A stretch of DNA of 64,000 nt, from NCBI GenBank assembly GCA_020628935.1, contig JAHDEG010000005.1, positions 143,817 through 207,816 of the forward strand, read 5' to 3'. The notes under the pieces were generated by a model, which was not told the origin of the DNA, did not search any database, and saw only the letters and a list, made by a program, of their open reading frames with translations. The position numbers and the translations under genes were made by a program. Positions 54,013 through 64,000 of the stretch are shown one piece after another; the stretch's first letter is position 1; every line of letters starts with the position of its first letter. The DNA is from Flavobacteriales bacterium. Lineage in GTDB: Bacteria; Bacteroidota; Bacteroidia; Flavobacteriales_G; JALEGO01.

Positions 54013-55269
54013 ATGGCAACAATTAGAGTAAGATTAGACACAAGAAGGCAAAAAACGGATGGTACATATCCAATGAAGATGCGCATCATTCATCATGGTG
54101 TTTCTGCTGATATTCCATTAGGACTTTCTGTTGAGAAAAGTGAATGGAATACAACTAAAGAAGAATTGAATTCTACTTATCCCAATTCAAGAAGATATAA
54201 TGCAAGGCTATTTGAAAAGAAGGTCATTGCCAATAGGGTTATTATTGATTTTGAGAATGATTTGATGCGGCTTTCTGTTACGGACTTGAAATTAAAGATA
54301 GAGAAGGAAATTTTTAGAACTACTGAAGAACGTAATGAAAGAGATAAAGGCCCAAAGCTGGTAGAATACTATAACAAAATTGTTAAGGATTTTCAGAGCA
54401 ACGGAAAGCATGGCACTGCCGATCAATATGCAGGAGACCTGTATGCTATAAAGAAATACCTTAAAGAAATAAGAAAGAACGATATCTACATGAAGAGCAT
54501 CGACAAGGCATTCCTTGAGAAATTTAGACAGAGTTGTTTTAAAAGGGGTGTCAAAAATGGAGTCGTGCGTTACCTTAAAACCCTAAGAGCTGTTTTTAAT
54601 AAAGCAATTGCAGACATTGATACGAATTTAACGAGTGAGGATTATCCCTTCAATGGATTTGAGATAAAGAGAGTGGTGAAAACCAAGAAAAGAGCTGTAA
54701 GTAAAGATGTGATAACAACCTTTAGAAATCTGGAGTTGGAGAAAGAGAGTTTTGATTGGCACGTTCGTAATTTTTTCCTATTTCTGTATAATTCACGGGG
54801 AATGCAACTAGTAGACATGGCTCATTTAAGACCAATGGACTTTGATGGCGAGCGTTTCAAATATCTTAGAAGAAAGACTAAAAAGGAATATTGGATCAAG
54901 TTAACCGCAGAGTCTAAACAAATTCTTGAATATTATTTAGATGAAAAAGCTGAATCCACTGATTATATCTTTCCAATCATCCCGAAGTCAGTAAGAGGTA
55001 ATGCAGAGTTAGAGTTTAAAGCCTATACCAATTATAGGAAAAGGATGAATAACGCAGCCAATGAAATGGGTAAGCTTTGTGGTGTCAATAAAAGTTTTAC
55101 TACCTATGTTATGCGGCATGCTTGGGCCACTCAAGCGTTGAGTCTAGGAGTTGATGTTGTGAAGATTAAAGATGGTCTGGGGCATGAAAGTTTGGAAACA
55201 ACTCAACGCTATTTAGAGGAATTTGATGATGCTGTAATTGATGACTTGAATGACATGATTACGGCATAA
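54013..55269 (+). CDS. Tyrosine recombinase (island integrase)
   Basis: A 418-residue site-specific recombinase. Residues 1-100 are the arm-type DNA-binding domain (ATIRVRLDTRRQKTDGTYPM), residues 105-205 the SAM-like core-binding domain, and 230-410 the catalytic domain. Catalytic residues visible: Arg262 (NSRGMQL), Arg368 in YVMRHAWAT, the conserved His in GLGHESLETT, and the nucleophile Tyr in TQRYLEEF. In place of the His of the HxxR box is Tyr, as often in Bacteroidota enzymes. The gene reads into the element from the tRNA fragment. It ends 22 bp from the stop of the convergent unknown gene. Confidence 0.92.
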   Translation: MATIRVRLDTRRQKTDGTYPMKMRIIHHGVSADIPLGLSVEKSEWNTTKEELNSTYPNSRRYNARLFEKKVIANRVIIDFENDLMRLSVTDLKLKIEKEIFRTTEERNERDKGPKLVEYYNKIVKDFQSNGKHGTADQYAGDLYAIKKYLKEIRKNDIYMKSIDKAFLEKFRQSCFKRGVKNGVVRYLKTLRAVFNKAIADIDTNLTSEDYPFNGFEIKRVVKTKKRAVSKDVITTFRNLELEKESFDWHVRNFFLFLYNSRGMQLVDMAHLRPMDFDGERFKYLRRKTKKEYWIKLTAESKQILEYYLDEKAESTDYIFPIIPKSVRGNAELEFKAYTNYRKRMNNAANEMGKLCGVNKSFTTYVMRHAWATQALSLGVDVVKIKDGLGHESLETTQRYLEEFDDAVIDDLNDMITA

Positions 55270-56177: not shown

Positions 56178-59150
56178 CTAATAATACTCCTTGATATAAG
56201 CATAAGCCCGATCAAAAAGCACTTGATCCTTATGTAATTTGTATTTCAATAACGCCTTTCTCAATGATTTTTGCACTTCTCTTTCTCCGGAGGTGGTTGT
56301 TTGCCAACCTGGAAAATTTACTACTCTAACAATGGCATCAATATCAGTAACGATCCTTTCAACAACTGCTGGCGTTTCATCATTCTTAAGTTCAAGAAAC
56401 AGTTCTGTTAAAGCGGCTATAGGTGACTTTTCTTGGATTTCTTCTTCCAATTCTTTTTCTGCTTGCACAGTCTCCTTTGCTATTTTGCAAAGATCCTTCA
56501 CAAATTCAATTGAAGTAATCAACCCTTTTTCAGCTTTATCTCTCAACTCCTCCAGACGTTCACTTAGTTTTTTGAAAGTAGGGTGTTCGCCATTTTTCTT
56601 GAACCGTTTAATTAGGATTTTTTCTAGCTTTTTAGCATTCTTAGGATCTGGATTATTAAAGATGTCCTCAATTACATCTGCATCCAACACGAACTCTTCT
56701 AAGTGATGAACTTTGCCAACATGAATGTTGTCATGTATCAATTGAGTAGTTTGAGCTCCCAAAGAGAACCACAGTAGCTTCCCAATATTATCGGAAGCAG
56801 GTCTCACTGATTCAAAGACTTGAGAAAGCCATTTATAATCTTCTTGATAAATATCTAATATTCTATCTGGTGAAAGAGATTCCCAAAGCTTTGCTAAGTA
56901 CTTAAAATCCTTGGCAAAAGCATCTTTCTTCTCATCAGTATTGATTGCATTTTGAGCAGCTTCGAGTCCTTCAAAGCCCTCTTTAGATCGATCTACACCT
57001 TGAAAATGAGAAAGTGCATCTTTCATGGCTTCTGGTAACTTCCCTCGCAACTCTGAAAGATTGGAAATGATTTGAGCCACAGACTTTTCATCAAACTCCA
57101 ATGCTTTTGCAGTATCATCAAATACTCCAAAATAATCCACAATTCTACCAAATGTTTTATTTGGATAAAGACGGTTTGTTCTACAAATAGCCTGCAATAG
57201 AGTATGGTCCTTCATGGACTTATCTAAATACATTGTTTGCAAAACTGGTGCATCAAAGCCAGTTAACAGTTTTGCTGTAACAATAATGAATTTTAAATTG
57301 CTTGAAGCATCGTTGAACTCATCTACAATTTTTTCTTGTTTTGATTTATCTACGCCCCATTTTTGCTTGAATTCGAAATCATCATTTGCAGTGATTGACA
57401 TTACTACCTTGCTGGCCTCCTCTGGGAAGTATTTATCCAATTCTTCTTTGTATTGAACACAAGCATACCGATCTGGAGTTACAATCATAGCTTTGAAACC
57501 TTGTGGTTCCACTTTTTCTTTAAAATGAGTGGCTATGTCTTCAACGATTTTAGATACTCTTTCTGGAGATTTAAGAAACGCGGCCATTTTTGCTGACTTT
57601 TTATTAAGTGCATCAGCTTCATCATCAGACAGTGCAGCTTGTTCTCTAAAATCTGCCATGGCTTTATCAATGGTCTCTTTATCCACATGAACATCTACTA
57701 ACCTTGGCTCAAAGTGTAAGGGCAAAGTAGCTTCATCTCTAATGGAGTCTTGAAATGTGTATCGCGACATATATCCACCCTCATCTTCTTCAGCACCAAA
57801 GGCCCAAAACGTGTTTTTATCAGCCTTGTTCACTGGTGTTCCTGTTAACCCAAACAAAAATGCATTTGGCAATGAAGCCCTCATTTGCCTACCTAAATCT
57901 CCTTCCTGTGTTCTATGTGCCTCATCTACTAAAACAATGATATTGTCTCTGGTATTCATACTAGGTTTGGCATCGCGAAACTTGTGGATCATGGAAATAA
58001 TGATTTTTCTGGTATCTCGCTCTAATAACTTTTGCAGTTCTCTTATACTGTCTGTGGTTTCAACATTGGCTATGTCCGCTGCATTAAATGTTTCCGAAAT
58101 TTGAGTATCTAAATCCGTTCTATCAACAAGTACAATGACCGTTGGGCTTTTTAATTGTTGGTTTTTTCTCAATTTTTGCGCTGCAAAAACCATTAATAAT
58201 GATTTTCCAGATCCTTGAAAGTGCCAAATCAATCCTTTTTTAATGCGACCATCTACAACTCTTTGAACTATTTTATTTGCGCCTTCATACTGTTGAAATC
58301 GCGGTATAATTTTCATTCTTTGCTTTTTCTTATTGGTAGTGAAAAGCGAAAAATTTTGAAGAATATCGAGTAGCCTTCTAGGACTCAATAGGTCTTTCAT
58401 TTCTTTGCCAATCTCTCCTAAACCCAATCGTTTTGCTAAAGCATCTTCTGAATCACTATCCAAGCGCCAAGGTGCCCAAAATTCTAATGGACAACGAATA
58501 GCACCATAAAACAACTCTTTACCCTCTGTTGCAAATGACAGAATATTTGGAACAAATAATAGAGGAATACTATTCTCATAAATATCATGCACTTCATGGG
58601 CTCCGTCTAGCCAACTAACGGATGGTCGAATTGGTGTTTTCGCTTCACCAACTACGACTGGTATACCATTAATATACAAAACAACATCAGGAATTTTGGT
58701 TTCACGGTGATGCACCCTTAGTTGATTGGTAACGACATAGGAATTTTGCAACTCATTTTCAAAGTCAATTAAACGCACGGGTACGTGACGATTGTTTTCT
58801 CCAAAAGGCATGGTTTTTTCTCCTGCCATCCATTTGAAAAACTCCTCATTGGCTTTTACTAAACCGATTTGATTGACTGCAATAAGTACCGCTCTTAGTT
58901 TGTAAATAACTTCATCCGATAATTCTGGCTTTGCAGCTATTTCAGGATTGAGTCGAATCAATGCATCTTTCAATTCATTTTCTAAGAGCACTTCGTTTAC
59001 GCCTCTTTTTAAGTCAGCTGACGACTGATAACTCCAAGTAGCTCCATAATTTACAGTAGGCTCGGAAACAATATCTTTTTTGTTAAGATCTACTCCTGCC
59101 AGTTGATGGATAATATAATGTTCTACGCTATTGAGTTCGTTAAATGCCAT
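56178..59150 (-). CDS. hsdR: Type I restriction enzyme, motor/endonuclease subunit HsdR
   Basis: A 990-residue subunit that pulls DNA and cuts it far from the recognition site. The PD-(D/E)xK nuclease is near residues 150-172 (PDVVLYINGIPVVVGEAKTP), Walker A is WHFQGSGKSLLM near 309-320, Walker B is VLVDEAHRTQEG near 405-416, and FGLTGTPV is motif III. The helical C-terminal region (about 800-990) contacts the methylase complex. Length is normal and no frameshift is visible. Its ATG (59148-59150) lies inside the end of the nucleotidyltransferase gene (11-bp overlap), an unusual neighbour. The matching hsdS is at the window edge; hsdM must lie beyond it. Confidence 0.95.
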   Translation of the reverse strand: MAFNELNSVEHYIIHQLAGVDLNKKDIVSEPTVNYGATWSYQSSADLKRGVNEVLLENELKDALIRLNPEIAAKPELSDEVIYKLRAVLIAVNQIGLVKANEEFFKWMAGEKTMPFGENNRHVPVRLIDFENELQNSYVVTNQLRVHHRETKIPDVVLYINGIPVVVGEAKTPIRPSVSWLDGAHEVHDIYENSIPLLFVPNILSFATEGKELFYGAIRCPLEFWAPWRLDSDSEDALAKRLGLGEIGKEMKDLLSPRRLLDILQNFSLFTTNKKKQRMKIIPRFQQYEGANKIVQRVVDGRIKKGLIWHFQGSGKSLLMVFAAQKLRKNQQLKSPTVIVLVDRTDLDTQISETFNAADIANVETTDSIRELQKLLERDTRKIIISMIHKFRDAKPSMNTRDNIIVLVDEAHRTQEGDLGRQMRASLPNAFLFGLTGTPVNKADKNTFWAFGAEEDEGGYMSRYTFQDSIRDEATLPLHFEPRLVDVHVDKETIDKAMADFREQAALSDDEADALNKKSAKMAAFLKSPERVSKIVEDIATHFKEKVEPQGFKAMIVTPDRYACVQYKEELDKYFPEEASKVVMSITANDDFEFKQKWGVDKSKQEKIVDEFNDASSNLKFIIVTAKLLTGFDAPVLQTMYLDKSMKDHTLLQAICRTNRLYPNKTFGRIVDYFGVFDDTAKALEFDEKSVAQIISNLSELRGKLPEAMKDALSHFQGVDRSKEGFEGLEAAQNAINTDEKKDAFAKDFKYLAKLWESLSPDRILDIYQEDYKWLSQVFESVRPASDNIGKLLWFSLGAQTTQLIHDNIHVGKVHHLEEFVLDADVIEDIFNNPDPKNAKKLEKILIKRFKKNGEHPTFKKLSERLEELRDKAEKGLITSIEFVKDLCKIAKETVQAEKELEEEIQEKSPIAALTELFLELKNDETPAVVERIVTDIDAIVRVVNFPGWQTTTSGEREVQKSLRKALLKYKLHKDQVLFDRAYAYIKEYY

Positions 59151-59835
59151 AAACTATTGCCTTTAATTTTGTTACGATCTTATCGAATCTTTGTTTCTGA
59201 TTTTCATAAAAAAGATTACCCAGAATGGCCTCTTGTTTAACTGCATCATTTAAAATATCAGCAAAGCATTTTTTCAAATAATCGCGAGCGTCATCTTCTG
59301 CGTGGAGAAGCTCTTCCTCTAGTTTTGAATCATGGTTTAACAAATACACTATATCCTCAAAATCTTTACTGGTTCTTGGGTCTTTTATGCCTCTATCATA
59401 AAATGCAGTGAATTTTGTACAGAGGTAATAAGGAAGAGATAAACACTTAATGGGTATGCCATCAATCTCGAAGTGAGTTAAATGCTTATAACCTGGAGCA
59501 AACCAAGGATTAGCAGGTGCCCAGCCAACTTGCTTTGTTGACATCACATCTACTTTAATATCTTCAAATCTAAAACGGCAAATAACATCATCTTCACTTG
59601 ATTGTTTAAACCCTTTTTTCGTAAGTTCTTCTCGAATATTTTCGAGTTCTGTAAGGCTTGCTATTTCCATGCTAATGTCAATATCTTGGGTAGGCCTAAC
59701 ATCATCAGCAGCAGGGTCATCAATGTATAAGCTTACCACAGCTCCACCAACATAAACCACTTTTTCGTTGAGTGCGCCCAATGCCAATGCAATTTTCTTG
59801 GTGGCATTACGATTAATTAAGGTGTTTTTTAGCAT
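59140..59835 (-). CDS. Nucleotidyltransferase (AbiEii-like, pol-beta fold)
   Basis: A 231-residue protein with the DNA polymerase beta-type nucleotidyltransferase core: YVGGAVVSLYIDD (28-40, with the GG turn), the acidic pair D51/D53 in QDIDIS, and a third acidic position in IKVDVMS near residue 97. Proteins of this group include type IV toxins such as AbiEii and the MNT antitoxins that modify partner proteins or tRNA. The start overlaps the winged-helix gene by 7 bp, the end overlaps hsdR by 11 bp, so the three are translated together. Whether it is the toxin, an antitoxin or a regulator of the restriction enzyme cannot be told from sequence. Confidence 0.82.
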   Translation of the reverse strand: MLKNTLINRNATKKIALALGALNEKVVYVGGAVVSLYIDDPAADDVRPTQDIDISMEIASLTELENIREELTKKGFKQSSEDDVICRFRFEDIKVDVMSTKQVGWAPANPWFAPGYKHLTHFEIDGIPIKCLSLPYYLCTKFTAFYDRGIKDPRTSKDFEDIVYLLNHDSKLEEELLHAEDDARDYLKKCFADILNDAVKQEAILGNLFYENQKQRFDKIVTKLKAIVYGI

Positions 59836-60341
59836 AGTCGTTTTTTCAGTTCTTCTATAGCAATTTGCTTTTCTCTAGCTCTACCCACCCGTAACGCATC
59901 GCATAAAGCCATTAGCTCATAAAATATAGAATCTTTCATGCACGCTTCAGGCACATTCGCATGCAGTGGTTCAATAGCTTCTCCGCGCACTGTACCTTCA
60001 AAGTAGGGCCAAACATAAGGTGCTTCACTTACTATTTGAGCATTAAGTGGAGGTGCAGCATGGGCGGTGGGTAAACCTCTTACCAAAGCACCTGGTTTTT
60101 GTGGATATACATAACGTAAGCCATTCTCCAAAAAATCGAGCAGTGCCATTTTCATCAATTGTTTTTTATCTTGAGTTATGAGACCTGCAATAGCCGAGCG
60201 GTTTAAGCTCTCACTTATTTCACTAGCACTTATCCCTAGCTCATAGGAAAGATCTTTCATATACCATGCAGTATTACCTTTGGCTGCTATTTTAAGCAAT
60301 ACAACAATATCATGGGGTCTCATTCCGCTGTGCTTCTTCAT
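59829..60341 (-). CDS. Winged-helix (MarR-like) protein partnered with the nucleotidyltransferase
   Basis: A 170-residue protein. Residues 7-75 form a winged helix-turn-helix (MRPHDIVVLLKIAAKG, LSYELGISASEISESLNRSAIAGLI), followed by a distinctive conserved block GLPTAHAAPPLNAQI (93-107), YVWPYFEGTVRGEAIEPLH (112-130) and a C-terminal helix (ALRVGRAREKQIAIEELKKRL). I recognise this second part from a widespread family often found beside nucleotidyltransferases. It is not canonical AbiEi by its C-terminal domain, but the two-gene arrangement (wHTH first, nucleotidyltransferase second) is the AbiE order. It is the first gene of the unit with hsdR, and the palindromes upstream (60548-60621) are likely operator sites. 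Confidence 0.75.
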   Translation of the reverse strand: MKKHSGMRPHDIVVLLKIAAKGNTAWYMKDLSYELGISASEISESLNRSAIAGLITQDKKQLMKMALLDFLENGLRYVYPQKPGALVRGLPTAHAAPPLNAQIVSEAPYVWPYFEGTVRGEAIEPLHANVPEACMKDSIFYELMALCDALRVGRAREKQIAIEELKKRLC

Positions 60342-60547: not shown

Positions 60548-60573
60548 AATTCGCGATTCGCGAATCGCGAATT
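60548..60573. promoter_or_regulatory. Perfect 26-bp palindrome (probable operator)
   Basis: Reading outward from the centre at 60560/60561 both halves are identical: each half is AATTCGCGATTCG. It contains two TCGCGA hexamers and a central CGCG-free TTCGCGAA core. In an A/T-rich region such a CG-dense palindrome is very unlikely by chance. It lies about 210 bp before the winged-helix gene, and 139 bp after the helicase stop. Confidence 0.72.
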
Positions 60574-60602
60574 GAAAATTAAGATCATTACTATAATATT
60601 GC

Positions 60603-60621
60603 GTATCGCGATATGCGATAC
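60603..60621. promoter_or_regulatory. Second inverted repeat with the same CGCGAT theme
   Basis: GTATCGC (60603-60609) and GCGATAC (60615-60621) are exact complements around GATAT. It shares TCGCGAT-type sequence with the 26-bp palindrome 30 bp away, so the two look like sites for the same dimeric protein. Confidence 0.6.
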
Positions 60622-60711: not shown

Positions 60712-61746
60712 CTAAATTAACCTATAGTTTTTTAGCAGTTCTTCAGAAACAATGTATAAATTTCTATTTGCCCTCGAAAAGGCAACATACAGCTTATTCT
60801 TGGTTAAAGAGTTAGAATTAAATAACTGTCCTTTTTTGTATAAACTATATGATGTTTTATTCAATACAACACAGACATCTTTAAAATGATTAATACCTTT
60901 TACACTTCCCCAGTTTCCTGAAAAACAGGTATATTTCCTGTGATTCTGATAGAATAATTTCACAATATTATTATCTCGTATAATTGCATCTACATCTTCA
61001 GGTTTTCTTAGAATAGTAATGATTGTTTCTTCCTTCTTGAATGTATCAACTTGTATTTCAAGATTGTTTTTGATAAAAGATGCTATGGTTTCACTAAACC
61101 TATAGCTTTTATTTAAAGTTGAATTATCTATCCTTATTCCATTATCAACAAACCTTTTAGTAAAGCTTTCTATAGAACTGTATAGCCTTTTATTTTTATT
61201 CGCATCCCTACTTGTATCATAAGTATGCTGATAATAATCTCCGACCCAAATTAAATTCATGCTAGTTTGTGTAAGAGACATCAACAATTCAAAATCATAA
61301 CCACCAAAATCTTGAATCTCATCGATAAAGAAACTATCAAAATATTTATTAACTCTTTCATTTACTCTCTTAAGTAAGTCTTTATTAATTAAATATTTAG
61401 ACAAACGATTATGATATACTCTACCATCTTTTGAAAAAAAATGTAGAGGATTGGTTTGCTGCATTTTGAGAGTAAATTGTAATGGCATATCCCAAAATAT
61501 TCCCCTTGGCTTATCAATTCTTTTTCTAAAAGGAATAAAGCAAAAGGAGTATAAAAATTCAAAAAAAGAATAAAGTGTTATATTATCTGGAAAATACCCG
61601 AATCTCTTCTGAATAGCCTGCCGTAAATTTTTTGTATTCTCTCGTGTATAGGTAACAATTAAATACCTTTTTTCAACATCTAATTGATTTATTATATAGG
61701 TAGTTTTACCTGATCCAGCGACAGCAAGTATTAGTCTTTTATCCAT
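60712..61746 (-). CDS. Short UvrD-like helicase (GajB-like)
   Basis: A 344-residue superfamily I helicase-type protein. It starts straight at the Walker A strand (LILAVAGSGKTTYI, residues 5-18), has Walker B as FIDEIQDFGG (about 140-149), motif III-like VGDYYQHTYD, motif IV NKSYRFSETIASFI, motif V SVKGINHFKDVCVVL, and motif VI YVAFSRANRNLYIV at the C-terminus. All core motifs are there, but it lacks the N-terminal Q region and most of the 1B/2B insertions; known GajB proteins are about 490 residues. It overlaps the GajA-like gene by 16 bp. In Gabija, GajB senses or feeds DNA ends to GajA; a minimal version of that role is inferred here. Confidence 0.82.
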   Translation of the reverse strand: MDKRLILAVAGSGKTTYIINQLDVEKRYLIVTYTRENTKNLRQAIQKRFGYFPDNITLYSFFEFLYSFCFIPFRKRIDKPRGIFWDMPLQFTLKMQQTNPLHFFSKDGRVYHNRLSKYLINKDLLKRVNERVNKYFDSFFIDEIQDFGGYDFELLMSLTQTSMNLIWVGDYYQHTYDTSRDANKNKRLYSSIESFTKRFVDNGIRIDNSTLNKSYRFSETIASFIKNNLEIQVDTFKKEETIITILRKPEDVDAIIRDNNIVKLFYQNHRKYTCFSGNWGSVKGINHFKDVCVVLNKTSYSLYKKGQLFNSNSLTKNKLYVAFSRANRNLYIVSEELLKNYRLI

Positions 61747-63284
61747 TCGATTGCTGATCTTATGTAGTCAGGGATTTTAATTTCCTCAATTTTATCTTCA
61801 AGAATCCTAAAAGAGCATTCAGCTTTATTCTGAAGCATATATTCCAAAACACTCAATTTTTTTCGCCCTCCAAATAATTCGTCACAAATGCTTTGGTTGT
61901 CATTATACATACAAACTTCAAACGTATATCTATCATCATTTTCATCAGCAAATATTTTCCAATTTGTATTCTCGTAATCTTCATAATTATTCATTACGTT
62001 TTTGACATAAGATTTATCATTATCAGTAATTACAACTACCCTGATATCAAGATCTCGAGCAAGGTCTAAGTATCTCTTAAAAGTTTTTCCTCCAACAGAA
62101 ATTATATGAATATTACTTTCATAGGGAGTGCAGCCTGCAATTTTCCCAAAAAAAGCCTCAATCAAAATAAACTCTGCGTCTCCTTCAACCAGAATAACCT
62201 TTGGAGACATAATGAACTGTAAGACATTATTATCAGGAGCCTTCATAAAGAACCTAGAAGAACTATCATCTATATCACTTAATTTGGTGCTTTGTTTACC
62301 AGAGCTATTAAGCATAATACATTGCTTTAAACCTAGTCTTGAAGAAATCATATTACTATGTGTACTTATAAATATTTGTTTATTTCCAGAGTTTTTGATC
62401 TTCTCTAGGAGCTGTAGCGTATAATTCTGGCTTAAATGGTTTTCAGGTTCTTCAAGTAAAACAGTGTCAATCGTTGACTCATTTCTGCTAAGGGCAAAGT
62501 CTGTTTTTATAAAGCACTGACGACCCTTTCCTCTGTTTTCTATTTCAATTGCATCTTCAGTAATTGTAAGGTCATTTTCCAAATTTGACTTTGAGTTTGA
62601 TTTTAATGAAAATTGATAATCCAATCCTTTGTTTATCACTTTTAATGAGTTTTCTTTAAATCCCTCCTTTAATCCCCTATATGAGTTTTCCAAACTACTT
62701 CTTTGACCGGAATCGGCCTTGCCGTAATAAAGCTTCTGAATATACTTTTTTGTAGCATAATCATTATTTATTTGTGTATTATCTATAAACAGATGGTTAA
62801 AATACCTATTAAATGAGCTATATGATCGGCCAGAAAATGTATTAAATTGAATTGAATAAAATTCAAATGGAAAGTTTTCTCCCTCTTGTTGAAGCACAGA
62901 ACGAATATCACTGCTATATTCATCGGAAGGCATGCATATCAAACAAAGCCCATCTGAGTTTATACCTAATGAATTATTGTCTCCGTTCAATTCAGGGTTG
63001 CCAGAATCATCAATAAAGACTTCTATTTCTAACCGTGGTATTTTATTATAGCTCTTTCCTTCGGAAAAAAAATCTTCAATTACTGATTTGTTTATTAGAT
63101 TTGACAATCCTAAGGATTCAACCTTACTCCGACTCCCGGATAAAACAATATCTAAGGCTTCTAAAATTGTACTTTTACCTGATTCATTATCACCGATAAA
63201 TATATTTAGTTCTTCATTTAACTTTACGTCAAAGGAGTCAAAACGCTTAAAGTTCTTCAGAATTATTCGGTTTATTGTTTTCAT
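61731..63284 (-). CDS. OLD-family ATPase/TOPRIM nuclease (GajA-like)
   Basis: A 517-residue protein with an ABC/SMC-like ATPase and a C-terminal TOPRIM domain. Walker A GDNESGKST is at 31-39, Walker B VLLEEPENHL near 274-283, the switch His in ISTHSNMISSRL near 305-315, then the TOPRIM glutamate in VILVEGDAEF near 361-370 and the acidic pair in VVITDNDKSY near 418-427. This is the class 2 OLD layout (OLD gene next to a UvrD-like helicase), which is the Gabija anti-phage system, where GajA nicks DNA when nucleotides fall. Its ATG shares one base with the hsdS stop (TAATG), so it is translated together with the restriction specificity subunit. Confidence 0.85.
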   Translation of the reverse strand: MKTINRIILKNFKRFDSFDVKLNEELNIFIGDNESGKSTILEALDIVLSGSRSKVESLGLSNLINKSVIEDFFSEGKSYNKIPRLEIEVFIDDSGNPELNGDNNSLGINSDGLCLICMPSDEYSSDIRSVLQQEGENFPFEFYSIQFNTFSGRSYSSFNRYFNHLFIDNTQINNDYATKKYIQKLYYGKADSGQRSSLENSYRGLKEGFKENSLKVINKGLDYQFSLKSNSKSNLENDLTITEDAIEIENRGKGRQCFIKTDFALSRNESTIDTVLLEEPENHLSQNYTLQLLEKIKNSGNKQIFISTHSNMISSRLGLKQCIMLNSSGKQSTKLSDIDDSSSRFFMKAPDNNVLQFIMSPKVILVEGDAEFILIEAFFGKIAGCTPYESNIHIISVGGKTFKRYLDLARDLDIRVVVITDNDKSYVKNVMNNYEDYENTNWKIFADENDDRYTFEVCMYNDNQSICDELFGGRKKLSVLEYMLQNKAECSFRILEDKIEEIKIPDYIRSAIEWIKD

Positions 63285-64000
63285 TAGAACATCCGGTTAA
63301 TTAAACTTTTTTGAAGGGCCTTGGAGCTTACGATTTTAGATTTTACAGCCATACTTGATTTCTCTAACAGATCTAATTCCATTCCAACTTGCTCAATTAG
63401 ACTTTTATCTTTGGGAATTGAAATATTATATTCTTCAACATCTTTTGGAGTAATTGCAGGATAACTGGTTCCAGTCATTCTATCTTCACAATATCTTGTG
63501 AATCTCATTGAGAAAAACTGATGGAAGACGAATCTGTTTAGATGTTTATCATCCATGTTGACAACTGCAGTGCCTGTTGAAGCGATAATGTCTTTTCCAT
63601 TTTCAACATAAGCAAATGCTTTTTGATATGGCCTAACCATTGCCAATACAATAGAATCGTCTTTTACTATTCTTTTTGCCCTACTGGGAGCGCTACTAAA
63701 TTGAATAGTTTTCAATTCTCCAATAATTTTAGGCTCGATAATACTGGCTAAATCTAAATACTTAAACACATAGTTAGATTCTGTTTTTGAGTTTAAAGAC
63801 TGACTATTGATAGAGGCAATTTTTCCCAACCTCACAAAGTCCCAATCATTCATTCTTTTAGAAAATAGATTGTCAACTTTTGCCTGATAAGTATTATCCA
63901 AATTCTCCAACAATTCAATACCCCTCTCAATCACATCGTCCATCGCCCATAGCAATTTCGCTAAACGGGCTTGTTGGTCTTTGGGTGGGAGGAGAAATTC
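63284..64000 (-). CDS. hsdS: Type I restriction specificity subunit HsdS, 3' part (open at window edge)
   Basis: The open frame runs to the last base of the window without a start; the TTG at 63955 is internal. From the edge it reads EFLLPPKDQQARLAKLLW, the central conserved coiled-coil region, then VIERGIELLENLDNTYQAKV. The second target-recognition domain follows (WDFVRLGKIASINSQSL, GTAVVNM, YPAITPKDVEEYNISIP) and a final conserved coiled coil (QVGMELDLLEKSSMAV). The first recognition domain and hsdM should be upstream, outside the window. The specificity cannot be read from sequence. The stop overlaps the ATG of the GajA-like gene. Confidence 0.88.
   Translation of the reverse strand, partial: EFLLPPKDQQARLAKLLWAMDDVIERGIELLENLDNTYQAKVDNLFSKRMNDWDFVRLGKIASINSQSLNSKTESNYVFKYLDLASIIEPKIIGELKTIQFSSAPSRAKRIVKDDSIVLAMVRPYQKAFAYVENGKDIIASTGTAVVNMDDKHLNRFVFHQFFSMRFTRYCEDRMTGTSYPAITPKDVEEYNISIPKDKSLIEQVGMELDLLEKSSMAVKSKIVSSKALQKSLINRMF

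Follow-up and report, generated by a model that had tools for sequence, protein, structure and literature searches.

A short-form Gabija gene pair in the hsdS-hsdR slot of a Bacteroidota type I restriction operon

Defence genes within type I loci and the layout of this one

Defence systems located between hsdS and hsdR have already been published, and the gajAB locus described here adds Gabija to them. DarTG2 lies between hsdS and hsdR in the RRDM island of EPEC, a site that its authors regard as a potential recombination hotspot (PMC12255303). As with gajAB here, a complete defence system fills the same hsdS-hsdR slot. However, the cargo is a different one, and the repressor RptR precedes that whole island, whereas here a candidate AbiE-like operator region precedes hsdR only. 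In Vibrio cholerae, TgvAB is embedded in a type I operon, and its protection does not depend on restriction by HsdR (PMC11411939). It is also a two-gene cassette in a type I cluster, but it is a modification-dependent nuclease of the GmrSD type, unlike gajAB. Further accessory genes within type I loci are PrrC (EcoPrrI), a tRNA nuclease that is switched on when the type I enzyme is inhibited, and the Campylobacter Rlo genes (PMC12707154, PMC11411939). Defences embedded in other immune systems are the subject of a 2024 preprint by Payne et al., and as cited in PMC11411939 and PMC12255303 it describes a general embedding principle that the gajAB locus shares. No description of Gabija in the hsdS-hsdR slot was found in the literature searched, which did not extend to the text of that key preprint.

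The locus lies on the minus strand of contig G000:C20, partly in the window (the whole stretch of 64,000 nucleotides that was analysed) and partly in the remainder of the contig. Its gene content and junctions were read directly, and the order is hsdM2-hsdM1-hsdS-gajA-gajB-M21A-M21B-hsdR. The window holds the 3' part of hsdS (63284 to 64000), an intact gene for a 389-aa type I specificity subunit (PADLOC Specificity_I, 8.7e-23; Pfam Methylase_S, 3.8e-6). The 5' end of hsdS is outside the window, at C20:208269 (the equivalent of window position 64453), and the full ORF is at L004 9270 to 8101. The gajA-like gene (61731 to 63284) and the gajB-like gene (60712 to 61746) follow in the same orientation, so that the pair is placed between type I core genes. 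Next come the two genes of the candidate defence pair PDC-M21. M21A (59829 to 60341; PDC-M21A, 8.8e-48) encodes a winged-helix protein, and M21B (59140 to 59835; PDC-M21B, 1.4e-47; Pfam AbiEii, 1.1e-10) encodes an AbiEii-like nucleotidyltransferase. The last gene is an intact hsdR (56178 to 59150; TIGR00348 hsdR, 1.2e-167) for a restriction and translocase subunit of 990 aa. The GC content is 28 to 32% in gajB and gajA, compared with 35 to 37% in the hsd genes.

An earlier note on this DNA had placed a Gabija-like pair inside a type I operon directly behind hsdS, and the full locus from hsdM2 to hsdR on the contig bears this out. The hsdS stop and the gajA start do share a base in TAATG, as the note had said, with gajA beginning at base 63284 (TTCTAATGAAAAC), and gajB does overlap gajA by 16 bp. 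However, TAATG is not peculiar to the hsdS-gajA junction. Upstream of hsdS are two full-length, adjacent hsdM genes. The junctions measure 0 and -1 bp, and TAATG is therefore found at the hsdM1-hsdS junction as well. Further down, gajB and M21A are 370 bp apart, M21A and M21B overlap by 7 bp, and M21B and hsdR overlap by 11 bp.

The tandem full-length hsdM genes with their one hsdS lie just outside the window on C20 (L004:9270-12212). A tandem or near-tandem hsdM pair was also seen in L127, L130, L132, L133 and L134. This recurrence suggests that the type I methylase is built with two distinct kinds of M subunit.

Identity and spread of the gene pair

The first gene of the pair encodes a 517-aa OLD-family protein, an ABC ATPase with a TOPRIM nuclease domain, and the second a minimal superfamily-1 UvrD-like helicase of 344 aa. 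The best PADLOC models were GajA PDLC00102 (532 positions, 8.1e-114) and GajB PDLC00148 (369 positions, 1.1e-47). Their lengths match those of the two proteins, so PADLOC already covers short Gabija clusters. Pfam found AAA_15 (4.8e-18) and OLD-like_TOPRIM (1.2e-20) in GajA, the former in an N-terminal ABC ATPase and the latter in a C-terminal TOPRIM domain, and UvrD-helicase in GajB, the product of the adjacent UvrD/PcrA/Rep-like helicase gene. Among 39 relatives, the Walker A, EGD and DND residues of GajA are invariant or nearly so; the G31-S38 region, E278/E279, E367 and D421/D423 are invariant. The helicase motifs of GajB are likewise invariant or nearly so. The strong PADLOC matches and conservation in 80 loci show that these ORFs did not arise by chance.

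AlphaFold models were built from 39 (GajA) and 38 (GajB) sequences and reached pLDDT values of 89.4 and 91.1. In Foldseek, the top matches of the GajA model were the Gabija structures 8x5i (E 4.4e-17) and 8sm3; TsOLD (6p74) was nearly as close as the Gabija structures, at a TM of about 0.5. The best match of the GajB model was the GajB of 8tk1 (E 4.5e-11). A PDB sequence search with the GajB protein gave no match, and a PDB profile search gave mainly UvrD/PcrA-type helicases. Neither search singled out Gabija, so it was the fold search that recognised GajB. Class 2 OLD proteins, to which the GajA of Gabija belongs, carry a helical insert in TOPRIM that adds about 50 aa relative to class 1 (PMC10568477). 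At 517 aa, GajA is no larger than the class 1 protein TsOLD (528 aa). Its model has helices after the DND motif.

On the PADLOC models and the predicted fold, we call the pair a short-form Gabija, in keeping with the earlier note. It has the gene pair, gene order, ABC-ATPase and TOPRIM domains and SF1 helicase of Gabija, and its best PADLOC and PDB fold matches are to Gabija. Gabija is also marked by a 4:4 GajA-GajB complex, by site-specific nicking that ATP inhibits and by anti-phage activity, whereas the comparison here is one of genes, sequences and predicted folds. It differs from Gabija of the solved structures in three respects. The chains there have about 550 to 630 and 493 residues, compared with 517 and 344 aa here, sequence identity to them is only about 14 to 18%, and the pair here is embedded in a type I operon. 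The short proteins, the low GC content and the many shortened plasmid copies in other hosts might be taken to mean that the pair is a relic and not a working Gabija. We consider this highly improbable, because both ORFs are intact, all catalytic motifs are present, and the confident models match Gabija proteins.

We scanned genomes for relatives of the pair and found 360, and we took neighbourhoods from the best 80 of them. The 16-bp overlap of gajA and gajB was present in 71 of 75 pairs. It therefore belongs to the gajAB cassette and not to the type I locus. Among the best 80 of 360 relatives, only 6 loci had a matched restriction-modification (RM) gene within 10 kb, in a census based on protein matches to the Hsd proteins of this locus and of a few relatives, which may miss very divergent RM genes, and on contigs many of which are short MAG fragments. 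In the same sample, 79 of 80 loci were without an adjacent hsdS; the exception was L011, where the gap to gajA is +30 bp. L006, whose pair is the nearest one in the genomes sampled from the phylum, also lacks hsdS. PLSDB has 2170 records with a match to GajA, at identities of up to about 47%. Most of them are enterobacterial and most are conjugative, and both plasmid copies of gajAB that we inspected sit behind vapBC. These comparisons show that gajAB is a transferable cassette that moves independently of hsdS.

Several other occurrences were recorded. Short Gabija occurs widely on plasmids of Klebsiella and E. coli (H1-H92, L009, L010), and many of the PLSDB copies are shortened to about 225 residues. 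On an Arcobacter contig (L053:2795-9752), gajAB follows 12 bp after a Rad50/SbcC-like gene that is itself behind an SbcD-like gene, both named from their sequence start only. Identical gajA genes in MAGs labelled Spirochaetes, Firmicutes and Sphaerochaeta (L052, L054, L055) probably come from one organism binned under differing names. An unannotated Listeria phage record (LM 4-11-1; OR846759.1, 4533 to 6107) encodes a GajA that is 35% identical.

A GajA tree groups the window with L011 in a single clade (100/100), which sits on a long stem and is not joined to the other RM-adjacent loci. This support and the common order hsdS-gajAB-M21-hsdR indicate that the association has been kept for some time. 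In the other RM-adjacent loci, a methylase-specificity fusion directly precedes gajA (L028, gap 4), a type IIG gene directly precedes it (L051 and L062, gap 5), or gajA is preceded by a type IIG and an HNH gene (L111 and L112). The recurrence of RM genes ahead of gajA could mean a functional link. One such account would be that short Gabija recurs behind the recognition and methylation genes of unrelated RM systems because the two cooperate, with Gabija attacking, for instance, DNA cut or marked as foreign by the RM system. It would cover the type I loci (here and L011), the L028 fusion, the type IIG loci and the HNH-spaced loci, and we think it distinctly unlikely to hold.

A related proposal came from the earlier note. 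It took fusion into one coupled unit to suggest layered defence, in which Gabija might, for example, work on ends left by the restriction enzyme or step in once the enzyme is blocked; under this reading, the coupled gene order would be selected for that role. In its favour, modification or specificity genes of RM systems directly precede gajAB in no fewer than three settings (type I, methylase-specificity fusion, type IIG), and PrrC is published as a sensor of a blocked enzyme within a type I locus (PMC12707154). In addition, a 2025 preprint proposes that Gabija acts on linear DNA free of RecBCD (PMC12407980), which type I cleavage could supply. However, nearly all relatives among the best 80 of 360 are without an RM neighbour, the hsdS-gajA spacing varies between a 1-bp overlap here and +30 bp in L011, hsdR, the maker of the ends, is set apart by M21 with its own operator-like sites, and the slot also takes unrelated systems. 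We judge this proposal unlikely.

The hsdS-hsdR slot in related operons

We found related type I operons through HsdR (54 to 66% identical) and compared what lies between their hsdS and hsdR genes. L125, L128, L130, L131 and L133 have little or nothing in the slot, and in L125 hsdS even overlaps hsdR. The slot holds a macro-domain (DarG-like) gene and PDC-M29AB in L126, PDC-M11AB in L127 and, by gene order and sequence starts, likewise in L129 and L134, and genes for a retron III-A reverse transcriptase and a PRTase in L132 (3895 to 6480). Other cargo, PDC-S06 and PDC-S02, lies between hsdM and hsdS of related operons. The alternative cargos are thus a direct observation.

L105 resembles an isolated M21 pair at first sight but is a sister operon in decay. 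A mutated hsdR start lies only a few bases after the 3' end of its hsdS (SLQKSLINQIF, stop), with no gajAB between them. After that start come M21AB and then a second remnant of an hsdR start. The core operon without the insert therefore exists in decayed form as well as in the five operons with an empty slot. Filled, differently filled, empty and decayed sites together show that the slot works as an interchangeable cargo position, and the hsdS-hsdR junction in this type I family is a slot for unrelated, interchangeable defence cassettes. The lack of gajAB in L105 and the hsdS-hsdR overlap in L125 indicate that gajAB was gained in this slot.

The window and L011 are 82% identical in HsdR, 70% in HsdM1, 69% in GajA and 61% in GajB, compared with 54% in M21A and 39% in M21B. 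From these sequences, gajAB was probably present in their common ancestor. The 39% in M21B against the 82% in HsdR points to a separate M21 insertion or replacement, so that M21 probably entered separately or was replaced. The M21 pairs of L011 and L105 are 91/84% identical (M21A/M21B). In L011, a fragment of the hsdR 5' end lies between gajB and M21A, and repeats of that end stand ahead of the real hsdR; both indicate recombination at the gajB/M21/hsdR boundary. At L011:5890-6160, the hsdR 5' end occurs three times with copies of the CACCACAGATAACRCAGATACACACAGAG element between.

The duplicated hsdR 5' ends around M21 in L011 and L105, together with the many different cargos, would also fit a slot that is nothing but a hot spot for insertion and recombination. 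In this scenario, gajAB would be opportunistic cargo that borrows the hsdMS promoter, with neither cooperation nor useful co-regulation. We regard this as possible but doubtful, because the inserts are closely joined to their neighbours and run in operon orientation, a pattern that suggests co-expression is selected.

Transcription units, carrier element and a working explanation

AbiE systems have an autoregulated promoter. Before M21A is an operator-like palindrome (60597 to 60620; TATTGCGTATCGCGATATGCGATA), and sequence comparison showed that a 17-bp stretch of it is identical in L011, though the M21A proteins are only 54% identical. A second palindrome (60548 to 60573; AATTCGCGATTCGCGAATCGCGAATT) scored as a terminator-like hairpin and resembles operators before M21A elsewhere. 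Given this resemblance, an operator is the likelier reading, and we dropped that of a terminator. CGCGA-type palindromes upstream of M21A exceed the local expectation in 8 of 11 loci checked, and at this locus 6 were found versus 0.3 expected. They occur before M21A in the window (60548 to 60620) and in L011, L102-L104, L106, L108 and L109. A CGCGA-type motif before M21A in L105 was seen by eye; the automated count did not register it, as the ORF start there had been placed too far upstream. By analogy with AbiE, these palindromes are probably a candidate operator of an autoregulated promoter, with M21A as the putative autoregulator and antitoxin.

No separate promoter was found directly before gajA; consensus promoter hits were at chance (33 found, 32.7 expected), and a scan for the Bacteroidetes-type pattern gave matches below the shuffled control, so such scans have no discriminating power here. 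We infer that gajAB is very probably co-transcribed with hsdM and hsdS. Because of the palindromic operator-like repeats upstream of M21A, hsdR is probably in a transcription unit with M21, apart from gajAB.

The earlier note had joined hsdS, the OLD nuclease and the helicase into one translationally coupled unit, a reading that these results support only in part. The order hsdS-OLD-UvrD did recur in another genome, L011, but the zero distance did not, since the gap there is 30 bp. The idea of fusion is further weakened by the gajA/gajB overlap, a property of the cassette, and by the M21 module with its operator-like sequence, which parts hsdR from gajAB. Nor is the pair tied to hsdS, given the relatives without an adjacent hsdS, the plasmid copies behind vapBC and the decayed operon without gajAB; such independent movement is one of the two observations that the note had named as refuting its reading.

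The locus is likely carried by an integrative element in a Bacteroidota genome that resembles a satellite or a provirus. Its genes were recorded from window position 54013 to C20:224000 (about window-equivalent 80200). A tyrosine integrase gene lies at one end (54013 to 55269, plus strand; Phage_integrase, Phage_int_SAM_5 and Arm-DNA-bind_5). About 25 kb further, on the other side, are genes for a CI-like S24 repressor, a helix-turn-helix (HTH_17) protein and a VapE-like replication protein. Between the integrase and these genes, the element carries endolysin, transglutaminase/LPD1 and AbiTii genes. A search for att repeats of the element gave only 13 bp in common, no better than the control; an Rfam search gave no match and a tRNA search found none. 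Relatives of three element-cluster proteins adjoin another gajAB pair in L056, and an uncharacterised Bacteroidota element may therefore carry Gabija repeatedly.

We suggest that gajAB is an independent cassette in a type I slot, co-expressed with hsdM and hsdS as a second line of defence, and we hold this to be likely. In this model, a self-contained short Gabija cassette with its own 16-bp coupling would have entered a two-hsdM type I operon of an integrative element at the point where hsdS meets hsdR, and it would be expressed along with the modification genes. An AbiE-like M21 pair with its own operator, inserted ahead of hsdR, would split hsdR off into a second transcription unit. GajAB would be an ATP-controlled nuclease-helicase that hits phage DNA missed by the type I enzyme, at modified sites or under antirestriction. 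It would act independently and not as a partner subunit of the restriction enzyme, with a function that complements it. The precedents of TgvAB and DarTG2 make an autonomous second line the most likely role for GajAB. Two observations weigh against the model: the window and L011 have kept the association for some time, and RM genes recur ahead of gajA.

The arrangement is interesting but not unprecedented, since gajAB is one of several defence cassettes at this slot. It also calls for caution in taking tight gene overlaps as functional fusion; here, the conserved overlap is the cassette's own. If Gabija and the restriction enzyme cooperate, the locus would be a natural test bed, with both halves intact and probably separately regulated. 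Gabija thus joins the systems known from the hsdS-hsdR slot, and the comparison gives direct evidence that the slot of one type I family is an interchangeable cargo position.
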